From positions 1-38,775 of the forward strand of contig JADFJT010000016.1 of the NCBI GenBank assembly GCA_022566015.1: a stretch of 38,775 bases of DNA. The letters are read 5' to 3'. The notes beneath the pieces were generated by a model. That model was not told where the DNA came from. It made no database searches and was given only the letters and a program-made list of their open reading frames with translations. The position numbers were made by a program, and so were the translations under genes. This document shows positions 2,837-14,746 of this stretch, in pieces (position 1 is the first letter of the stretch; the number at the start of each line of letters is the position of its first letter). This DNA is from Pseudomonadota bacterium (GTDB lineage: Bacteria; Pseudomonadota; Gammaproteobacteria; GCA-001735895).

Positions 2837-2865
2837 CTTATAATAAAACTGTATCAGAAAATCAA
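2837..2865 (-). promoter_or_regulatory. Putative sigma70 promoter of the amidase gene
   Basis: On the minus strand TTGATT (2865-2860) is followed after 17 bases by TATAAG (2842-2837), about 43 bases before the ATG of the amidase gene at 2794. It lies in an AT-rich 273-bp gap after tsaE, so the amidase may be transcribed separately from nnr-tsaE. Nothing else was recognised in this gap. Consensus match only. Confidence 0.45.
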
Positions 2866-3067
2866 CACTTTTCCTATATTTATTAAAGAGATAGTGAATC
2901 TTTCTCGAATTAAATTTAAGATCTTTCGAATAAATCATCGATGATTCTAAAAGAACGAGCAACGAGAATTGTCATTTGCGCTCGATTTACTAAATTAATG
3001 CTTAATCTGCTTCGATATTGTCACCACGTCCCGGTGCTGCCAGTAGGATTAATACATCACATTTTCT

Positions 3068-5176: not shown

Positions 5177-8002
5177 ATGAGCAAACAGGCGATAAGTTTC
5201 CATGCAAAATCGGACAAAGAACTGCGTTCACGGGTAAAACTACTGGGTAGGCTACTCGGCAAGGTTTTACTCAAACACGAAAAACCGGAAGTTTTTCACG
5301 CAGTCGAATCCTTGCGCACTGGATTTATTCAGTTGCGAAAACGCAATAGCGAACCCGCTCGGCAAGCTTTGATGACGCTGATTGATAAATTACAACCTTA
5401 TGTCGTCAATCAGGTCATTCGCGCTTTTACCATCTATTTTAATCTGGTCAACATCGCCGAAGAAGATTTCTTACACCGCCAACGACGTCGATCGGTGCAA
5501 AAACACGGGCACGCCATTTGGACAGGATCCTTCCACCACACCTTGCAGGAATTTCAGCAGCAGGAGGTAAGCCTCGAACAATTGCAGCAATTACTCGACA
5601 GCCTATCCTATACGCCGGTATTTACCGCACACCCGACCGAGGCCAAACGCCGCACTATCATGCAATTGCAGCGTAGGGTATTCACCATTATCGACCAGCT
5701 TACCGACCCTCGTCTGGGTCAGTTTGAACACGACGAACTGGTCGATGCCCTACAGTCCCAAATCGAGGTGCTATGGCTAACCAACGAGGTGCGCAGCAAT
5801 AAACCCAGTGTGATCGATGAAATAAAATTGGGGCTGCACTACTTTCAGCGCAGCCTGTTCGAAGCGGTCAAGATCGACTATCGGCACCTGGAGCGCGCCA
5901 TCATACTGACCTATGGTGAAGACGCAGTAGGAAATCCGGCGGCAAAGGTCCCGAGCTTTATTCACTTTGGCTCCTGGATAGGCGGCGATCGGGACGGTAA
6001 TCCATTCGTCACCGCCGAAATAACACGCATAGCCCTACGCATGCACTCGGAGGAAATACTGACCGAGCACGTGCGACTCATTTACCAGCTAACCCAGGTG
6101 CTTACCATGTCAACCAGATGGTGTAAGCCGAGCGAGGCTTTTATGCAAAAACTGCGGGCCGACGAGGCGATGGGTGTCGAGGCTTTCGACCAACGACGCG
6201 ACCAGTTCGAAGATGAGGTATACCGACGTAAGCTCTATCACATGCACACTAGACTCAGGAAAAACCTGGCGATCGTCAGAAACCAGCTGCGCGGGATGGA
6301 CACTCCGAATAGCCACCACGCTTACACCAACGAGAAGGAGTTTCTCGACGACCTTTATTCGATTCGTGACTCACTGATTAGCCACGGTGAGTATTCGACC
6401 GCTAATGGTGAATTAAAAGACGTGATTCGTATCGCCGAAACCTTTGGTTTCTATATGGTTTCGCTCGATATAAGACAGGATTCGGCCCGTCACACGCAAG
6501 CCGTTTCCGAAATCGTAAAAAACAGTGGCATGAAAGACTATTCAGCGATGGACGAGGCACAACGCCTGCAGTTTCTGGCTGACCAAATTGTTTCGGGCGA
6601 TCGCCTGGAAATTACCCCGACCCGGCTGTCTGACCAGACTCGTCAGACACTGGAAGTATTTCAGACTATATCCGATATGCGCCAGGGCATTAGCGATCGA
6701 TGTATCGGCAGTTATGTGATTTCGATGACCCATACCGCCAGCCACATCATGGAGGTCATGTATCTGGGCTACCTCTCGGGGCTGGTTGGACAGCGCGATG
6801 GTGAATACTTTTGCAACCTGGAAATCGCGCCCCTGTTTGAAACCATCGACGATCTCGGGCATATCGATACCGTCCTCGATATCCTGCTGCAAATCCCGGT
6901 TTACAAAAATCTACTGGCCAAAAGCGGTGGCGTACAGGAAGTAATGCTGGGTTATTCCGACTCATGCAAGGATGGCGGCATCATGTCAGCCGCCTGGGGT
7001 CTCTATCAGGCGCAAATAAAAGTCGTCCAGATTACCCAGAGTCATGCTGTGAAATGCCGAATATTCCACGGGCGAGGCGGCACGATTACCCGTGGTGGCG
7101 GGCCCACACACGCCGCGATTATGTCGCAACCTCCACAGACGGTGCTCGGCCAGATAAAATTCACCGAGCAGGGTGAAGTGCTGTCACACAAATACAGCAA
7201 CACCGAAACTGCTCACTACGAACTTGCAATGGGTATTACCGGATTGATGAAGGCCAGTATCGGAAGCGCACGAGACGCAAGAGCCAGTTACGATGATTAC
7301 CTGCCGATCATGCAGTCGCTTTCCGACCTGTCGGAGCAGTATTACCGGGAGCTAACAGACCACACCGAAGACTTTTTCAAATATTTTTACCAGGCTACCC
7401 CTGTAATTGAAATCGGGCTGATGAATATCGGTTCCCGGCCTTCGCACCGAAATAAAGGCGACCGCTCGAAATCTTCGATACGCGCGATACCCTGGGTGTT
7501 TGGCTGGAGCCAGTCGCGTCACATGATGCCCGCCTGGTATGGTGTCGGTTATGCGATTAGTCGGTGGCTGGAAAGAAATCCCGGATCGGTGAAAAATCTG
7601 CGCGATATGAATAAACACTGGCCGTTTTTTGCGGCGATGATCAGCAACCTGCAAATGTCGCTGTTCAAATCGGATATGCGTACCGCGCTTGAGTATAGCA
7701 AGCTATGCGAGGACAAAATTCTGGGTAAAACTATATTCGGCAAAATAGAAAAGGAGAATAAAACAACCATCGAGCAAGTACTGAAAATAGCCAATATTAA
7801 AAAATTGCTTTCAAACGATCCGGTACTAACCCTGTCCTTAACGAGACGCGACCCTTACCTGGACCCCCTCGGCTATCTGCAAATCAACCTGCTCAGAAAA
7901 TATCGTGACGAATCGGTGCCCGAAGACCAGCGATTCGAATGGCAAGGTGGCCTGCTTAGCTCCATTAACGCCATCGCAGCCGGTTTGCGCAATACCGGTT
8001 AA
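5177..8002 (+). CDS. ppc: Phosphoenolpyruvate carboxylase
   Basis: Carboxylates PEP with bicarbonate to oxaloacetate, refilling the TCA cycle. Conserved elements are FTAHPTEAKRRT with catalytic H152, GSWIGGDRDGNP, VMLGYSDSCKDGG, FHGRGGTITRGGGP with H631 and R633, the WVFGWSQSRHMMPAW segment, and the typical C terminus AAGLRNTG. The ATG at 5177 (MSKQAISFHAK) follows AGAAGG closely and is preferred to an upstream TTG. The 941 residues exceed the 883 of E. coli, with the excess near the N terminus and in the middle. A TATACT box at 5144-5149 may be its -10 element. The allosteric properties cannot be read from the sequence. Confidence 0.96.
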   Translation: MSKQAISFHAKSDKELRSRVKLLGRLLGKVLLKHEKPEVFHAVESLRTGFIQLRKRNSEPARQALMTLIDKLQPYVVNQVIRAFTIYFNLVNIAEEDFLHRQRRRSVQKHGHAIWTGSFHHTLQEFQQQEVSLEQLQQLLDSLSYTPVFTAHPTEAKRRTIMQLQRRVFTIIDQLTDPRLGQFEHDELVDALQSQIEVLWLTNEVRSNKPSVIDEIKLGLHYFQRSLFEAVKIDYRHLERAIILTYGEDAVGNPAAKVPSFIHFGSWIGGDRDGNPFVTAEITRIALRMHSEEILTEHVRLIYQLTQVLTMSTRWCKPSEAFMQKLRADEAMGVEAFDQRRDQFEDEVYRRKLYHMHTRLRKNLAIVRNQLRGMDTPNSHHAYTNEKEFLDDLYSIRDSLISHGEYSTANGELKDVIRIAETFGFYMVSLDIRQDSARHTQAVSEIVKNSGMKDYSAMDEAQRLQFLADQIVSGDRLEITPTRLSDQTRQTLEVFQTISDMRQGISDRCIGSYVISMTHTASHIMEVMYLGYLSGLVGQRDGEYFCNLEIAPLFETIDDLGHIDTVLDILLQIPVYKNLLAKSGGVQEVMLGYSDSCKDGGIMSAAWGLYQAQIKVVQITQSHAVKCRIFHGRGGTITRGGGPTHAAIMSQPPQTVLGQIKFTEQGEVLSHKYSNTETAHYELAMGITGLMKASIGSARDARASYDDYLPIMQSLSDLSEQYYRELTDHTEDFFKYFYQATPVIEIGLMNIGSRPSHRNKGDRSKSSIRAIPWVFGWSQSRHMMPAWYGVGYAISRWLERNPGSVKNLRDMNKHWPFFAAMISNLQMSLFKSDMRTALEYSKLCEDKILGKTIFGKIEKENKTTIEQVLKIANIKKLLSNDPVLTLSLTRRDPYLDPLGYLQINLLRKYRDESVPEDQRFEWQGGLLSSINAIAAGLRNTG

Positions 8003-14264: not shown

Positions 14265-14280
14265 GGTACTGACAAGTTAA
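14265..14280. repeat. Left terminal inverted repeat of the miniature IS6 element
   Basis: Sixteen bases, perfect inverse of 14616-14631. The next base inward and outward both mismatch, so the repeat is exactly 16 bp. Confidence 0.9.
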
Positions 14281-14318
14281 CTTCTCGATCCTGGAAAATT
14301 CCTGCAGATATTGCCCTT

Positions 14319-14591
14319 TTACGCCACCGCACATTTCCAGGACGCAAAGGCACGCAACCGAAATATTCGATAGTGCTTAGCAGAAATTAAATGACGCCCC
14401 AGATTAAATAAATTATAAACGGCCGCATGGACATTTAAGAAACGTTGAGCCTGTTGAATCGATTTAAATCGACACCTGCCTCGTTCTCGAACCCTTGTTG
14501 GTTGGTGCGAAAGCTCAGCACGATTATCAGCATATTGAATGAATTCAGGTGGGAATCGGTGGCGCTTGTTTAATGTTTTTGAGCTGCTCAT
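14319..14591 (-). pseudogene. IS6-family transposase remnant with internal deletion
   Basis: From the ATG at 14591 the frame reads MSSSKTLNKRHRFPPEFIQYA, the N terminus of many IS6-family transposases. It then jumps at about 14526-14535 to NRAELSHQPTR, a motif from the C-terminal end after the catalytic DDE core. It goes on through RFKSIQQAQRFLNVHAAVYNLF and NLGRHL, also family-typical, to the stop. About two thirds of the protein is lost, apparently in frame, and all catalytic acidic residues except possibly the last are gone, so it cannot be active. The deletion may have run between short repeats encoding QY. Confidence 0.85.
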
Positions 14592-14615
14592 TCGACAATT
14601 ATCGCCTAACAGCAC

Positions 14616-14631
14616 TTAACTTGTCAGTACC
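14616..14631. repeat. Right terminal inverted repeat of the miniature IS6 element
   Basis: Sixteen-base perfect inverse of the left end, on the transposase-start side of the element. Confidence 0.9.
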
Positions 14632-14635
14632 CATA

Positions 14636-14655
14636 AAAAGGAACCCGCTAGGTTC
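14636..14655 (-). terminator. Hairpin with T tract, minus strand
   Basis: Read on the minus strand, GAACC-TAGCG-GGTTC is followed by CTTTTTATG. The stem is only 5 bp. It sits just outside the IS6 remnant and would stop transcripts running leftward from the ABC operon side, where no minus-strand gene is seen, so it may be a leftover of a lost gene. Confidence 0.35.
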
Positions 14656-14703
14656 AACGAGACCTTTTGTGTAGACTGCGTGCTAAACCGCTACCAGGAA
14701 AAT

Positions 14704-14718
14704 TAATCACGGTGATTA
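14704..14718. promoter_or_regulatory. 15-bp perfect palindrome, candidate operator of the ABC importer operon
   Basis: TAATCAC-G-GTGATTA, 28 bases before the ATG of the first ABC gene. The two 7-bp arms are perfect and typical in size for a dimeric HTH regulator. No regulator gene adjoins it, so the cognate protein is unknown. Confidence 0.4.
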
Positions 14719-14746
14719 CCTTTGCAAAGCCGAACGCCCGAAACCT

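Follow-up and report, generated by a model that had tools for sequence, protein, structure and literature searches.

A 367-bp unit in the genome of an uncultured gammaproteobacterium is a non-autonomous element of the IS6 family that has kept both of its terminal inverted repeats. It lies in the window, the 38,775-nucleotide stretch of DNA that was analysed. Taken as a whole, the explanation that the unit is such an element, that it originated by internal deletion and that it is now a passive insertion is in our judgement very probable. As an element it is real but ordinary, a new case of a kind that was known before.

Ends and reading frame of the element

The unit is bounded by inverted repeats of 16 bp, as the earlier note had claimed. 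The two arms (GGTACTGACAAGTTAA) match perfectly for 16 bp, and when extended to 21 bp they are 90% complementary. Nowhere else in the window is there a perfect 16-bp inverted repeat spanning less than 1 kb. No comparable repeat arose in 20 mononucleotide shuffles of the window. At both ends we find G1, G2 and G7, as in the consensus given for the terminal repeat of the IS6/IS26 family, of about 14-16 bp (PMC6807381). A genome-wide scan with the 16-bp end, allowing up to 2 mismatches, returned 16 near-matches, and the reversed control returned none. The search of this genome and related genomes that the earlier note had proposed located full-length, deleted and short elements with such ends.

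Between the repeats the start and the end of an IS6 transposase are fused in frame with the catalytic core gone, again as the earlier note had read it. About 20 residues are joined to about 68, the helix-turn-helix region and both catalytic D residues are lost, and only the E of the DDE triad remains. The NCBIfam transpos_IS6 profile recognizes only C-terminal positions 156-201 in the remnant. The 98-aa open reading frame as listed begins at GTG, with the transposase-like start at an internal ATG (MSSSKTLNKRHRF...). A fusion of this kind has a one-in-three chance of being in frame. In the remnant, a motif that the relatives conserve is altered in an unusual way at two residues, from MR to RC. 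Its divergence as analysed by dN/dS comes mostly from older family history, and for that reason does not date the deletion.

The unit is short (367 bp, compared with 788 bp for a full-length copy), has both ends and lacks a catalytic domain, all of which are properties of a MITE. Multiple copies at different sites are a further property, and a search for 367-bp copies with differing flanks had been proposed as a check. Its own genome has a single copy, and the 30 other genomes of the genus have none. Given this single-copy state, 'internally deleted IS6 derivative' is a safer name than MITE.

Table 1. Coordinates of the element, its parts and surroundings, and of related elements in the genus. 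Single ranges with a strand refer to the window.
Feature	Position	Strand	Remarks
Internally deleted IS6-family element (MITE-like), 367 bp	14265..14631	-	strand of remnant transposase frame
Terminal inverted repeat, tnp 3' end side	14265..14280	+	GGTACTGACAAGTTAA
Terminal inverted repeat, tnp 5' end side	14616..14631	-	GGTACTGACAAGTTAA
Remnant frame of IS6 transposase	14319..14615	-	N-terminal ~20 aa joined in frame to C-terminal ~68 aa
Inward transposase promoter-like site	14598..14627	-	CTGACA-18-GATAAT, -35 inside terminal repeat
Deletion junction	14530..14538	+	GCATATTGA; parental sites in relatives GCATACTGA and GCGTATTGA or GCGTATTGG
Native upstream region of importer operon, outside element	14642..14746	+	contains conserved CTTTTGTGTAGACT
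Internally deleted IS6 element, 262 bp	L031 434-695 (G010)		joined at GATTGAAT
Internally deleted IS6 element, 244 bp	L036 1501-1744 (G023)		joined at ATCGCT
Elements of 131 bp with IS6-type ends (n=5)	L021 (G000:C144) 474-604, 2499-2629; L022 2409-2539; L026 1501-1631; L030 1501-1631		three species
Second length class, 161 bp (n=2) and 162 bp (n=1)	L021 (G000:C144) 2840-3000, 6774-6934; L032 2544-2705		

Full-length relatives and probable origin by internal deletion

The same genome contains a full-length copy of 788 bp (contig C144, 8167-8954) bounded by the ends of the 367-bp element, its left end being one base off the 16-bp repeat. The ends of the short unit therefore coincide with the borders of a complete IS6 copy; had they not, or had no such relative encoded an IS6 transposase, the earlier assignment would have fallen. 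The full-length copy encodes an intact transposase of 230 aa that scores 209.9 bits (E 3e-62) against NCBIfam transpos_IS6 (NF033587), for which the cut-off is 125 bits, and it also matches Pfam PF13610 (DDE_Tnp_IS240). The catalytic residues, assigned by motif, are D79, D137 and E166, in a DD(28)E arrangement, and the motif E-SH---R follows the E. A full-length relative able to supply transposase, which the earlier note had envisaged, is thus present. A second copy in the genome, on contig C70, is damaged: a stop codon interrupts its transposase, and its right end is decayed or truncated.

Relatives of 782-805 bp whose ends are of the same type occur in the host's family and in other Gammaproteobacteria MAGs, and a 774-bp relative is found on a plasmid of Halioglobus pacificus, with a protein that is 75% identical. 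All told these relatives span 774-805 bp and have a transposase of about 230 aa with E-SH---R; the 367-bp unit lacks about 423 bp by comparison. The C144 copy resembles clade III of IS6/IS26 as described by Harmer and Hall (PMC6807381): it has the E-SH---R motif, and base 10 of its terminal repeat is an A. In its own terminal repeat the 367-bp unit has GG at bases 1-2, G7 and A at base 10, like full-length clade III elements (PMC6807381), but unlike them it is without the helix-turn-helix region, both catalytic D residues and an 8-bp target duplication.

The unit corresponds to about 270 bp from the beginning and about 100 bp from the end of the full-length form. Alignment to the C70 copy covers positions 1-274 of the 367 bp at 80%. 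Alignment to the C144 copy falls into two parts, 1-270 (72%) and 266-367 (74%), that overlap at GCATATTGA. The two parental sites lie about 423 bp from each other and form an imperfect direct repeat of 9 bp, as read from relatives of which the nearest are 20-28% diverged from the element, with no direct parent found. We propose that the starting point was an IS6 copy of full length, about 790 bp, and that a deletion between short direct repeats removed about 423 bp from its transposase gene. The junction itself is observed; slippage or microhomology joining would be the likely origin of the deletion, because the join sits at the 9-bp imperfect direct repeat. Two other species of the genus have independent miniatures, of 262 and 244 bp, with different breakpoints, and these are joined at 6-8-bp repeats. 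Deletions between short repeats have thus arisen more than once in the IS6 family here.

Mobility and short elements with the same ends

Both terminal repeats survive, and a transposase acting in trans could still recognize the element. Its mobilization by the transposase of the same genome is possible, because the source of the protein is present and both ends are intact. The earlier suggestion that the unit could still move thus stands as far as the supply of transposase is concerned; a second 367-bp copy, which would be a sign of movement, was found neither in the host nor in the 30 further genomes.

No 8-bp target duplication, a criterion for IS6/IS26 insertions, flanks the unit, and none was found at any paired element checked, full-length copies included. 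None of the full-length clade-III-like copies with readable ends (L021 8167-8954, L038, L052, L060, L079-L091 and L127) has one. Such a duplication is a diagnostic trace and not a strict requirement, and it is removed by intramolecular IS6 events or later rearrangement. The missing duplications would fit intramolecular replicative events, which would leave a single copy and no flanking repeats, or simple age. The replicative mechanism of IS6 is reviewed in PMC7986276.

The unit could alternatively be an immobile relic. An old IS6 copy would then have been shortened where it stood, and the 367-bp form as such would never have moved. This is a question within our preferred explanation, with identity and origin shared, and we weigh it on its own. 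With only one copy across 31 genomes of the genus, and no target duplication, the deletion could have happened in place. Yet both ends are perfect, though long decay would erode them, the genome also encodes an intact transposase, and 131-bp elements with the same ends lie at unrelated sites in three species. On this evidence we find the balance between a relic and an element that has moved to be even.

The short elements fall into two length classes. Four of the 131-bp copies, from three species, have interiors that are 75-89% identical in a gap-free alignment; the fifth is also exactly 131 bp, with an interior about 51% identical. The 161/162-bp elements are similar to one another mainly near their ends. 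In neither class does the interior match the transposase gene. Their flanks are unrelated, except for overlap within one contig, so the short elements have dispersed. They are like the 367-bp unit in being non-autonomous and in having 16-bp ends that are identical or nearly so, and differ from it in their non-transposase interiors and in occurring as several copies at different sites instead of one. Among 369 genomes of the class, only two, both from this genus, matched in a search for elements 131-161 bp long whose ends were exact. When the 131-bp family was folded, covariation lent no support (covariation term +0.2).

Two regions are crowded with such elements. In the first (L021, G000:C144, 474-8954), a full-length IS6 copy and four short elements with IS6 ends share 8.5 kb of one contig. 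In L032 1501-2705 (G020:C51) mobile elements are nested, and one IS6 copy abuts and truncates another; the 162-bp element of this genome lies where the second copy is broken, directly against the interior of that copy's IS6 transposase gene, and the sequence on its other side is unrelated.

The gap-free alignment of the 131-bp copies, the retention of exactly this length in the fifth and the second class at 161/162 bp could indicate that the genus hosts IS6-driven MITEs whose length is under selection. The 367-, 262- and 244-bp elements would then be repeated first steps towards a fixed length. We consider this reading improbable.

The importer operon and other miniature IS6 elements

On one side of the element is an SDR gene, and on the other the operon of a branched-chain amino-acid-type ABC importer (livG). 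The element ends 115 bp upstream of livG. The earlier note had placed it at a region without intact genes next to an importer operon. The neighbouring operon is there, but the region is only the 659-bp gap that separates an intact SDR gene from livG, and 367 bp of that gap are the element. Three relatives have orthologous SDR-livG gaps without the element. On the right, homology to these resumes about 10 bp past the element; the sequence on the left is not homologous, and for this reason the exact empty site cannot be read. The conserved CTTTTGTGTAGACT lies at 14660-14680 of the window, intact downstream of the element, and is common to six genomes of the genus including the host, among them relatives without the element. 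Upstream of livG, many other genomes of the genus share another motif, GAATTCGCTACCAT.

The proximity to livG, and a mini frame still open behind an intact inward transposase promoter, might suggest that the insertion has been domesticated, either as a promoter or operator for the importer operon, as the earlier note had raised, or as a source of a mini-protein that inhibits transposase. The promoter scan found no outward promoter in the element, only the inward one, and promoter-like sites in the region are no more numerous than in shuffles. With the native upstream motif intact and nothing reading outward in the promoter scan, a regulatory role for the importer operon is not supported. The mini frame has the MR to RC change, occurs once and is without a DNA-binding domain, which argues against an inhibitor. 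We regard domestication as very improbable. The element is better viewed as a passive insertion between the SDR gene and the importer operon, lying upstream of the operon's own conserved control region.

The inverted repeat might be due to chance or, in a draft genome of 197 contigs, to an artefact of assembly, but with no such repeat in the 20 shuffles and with ends that coincide with the borders of complete IS6 copies from several genomes, chance was rejected and we give this explanation next to no weight.

Non-autonomous IS6 elements had been described in the earlier note as seldom reported. They are indeed rare in lists, but the kind is already recorded. The IS6-family MITEs in ISfinder are MITEBth2 and MITEHarch3 (named in PMC6807381), and two IS6 MITEs are given as 227 and 336 bp (PMC7986276). 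By description these are like the 367-bp unit in having both IS6 ends, no functional transposase and a similar size; the unit differs from them in that remnants of the start and the end of the transposase gene are still present, joined in frame.

Miniature IS6 elements are thus sparsely recorded, with two in ISfinder according to the reviews (PMC6807381, PMC7986276), and the biology of the set found here is as one would expect. In this genus internal deletion has occurred independently three times, always at a short direct repeat, and a full-length source and dispersed short elements are present as well, so that the origin of IS6 MITEs can be traced stepwise.
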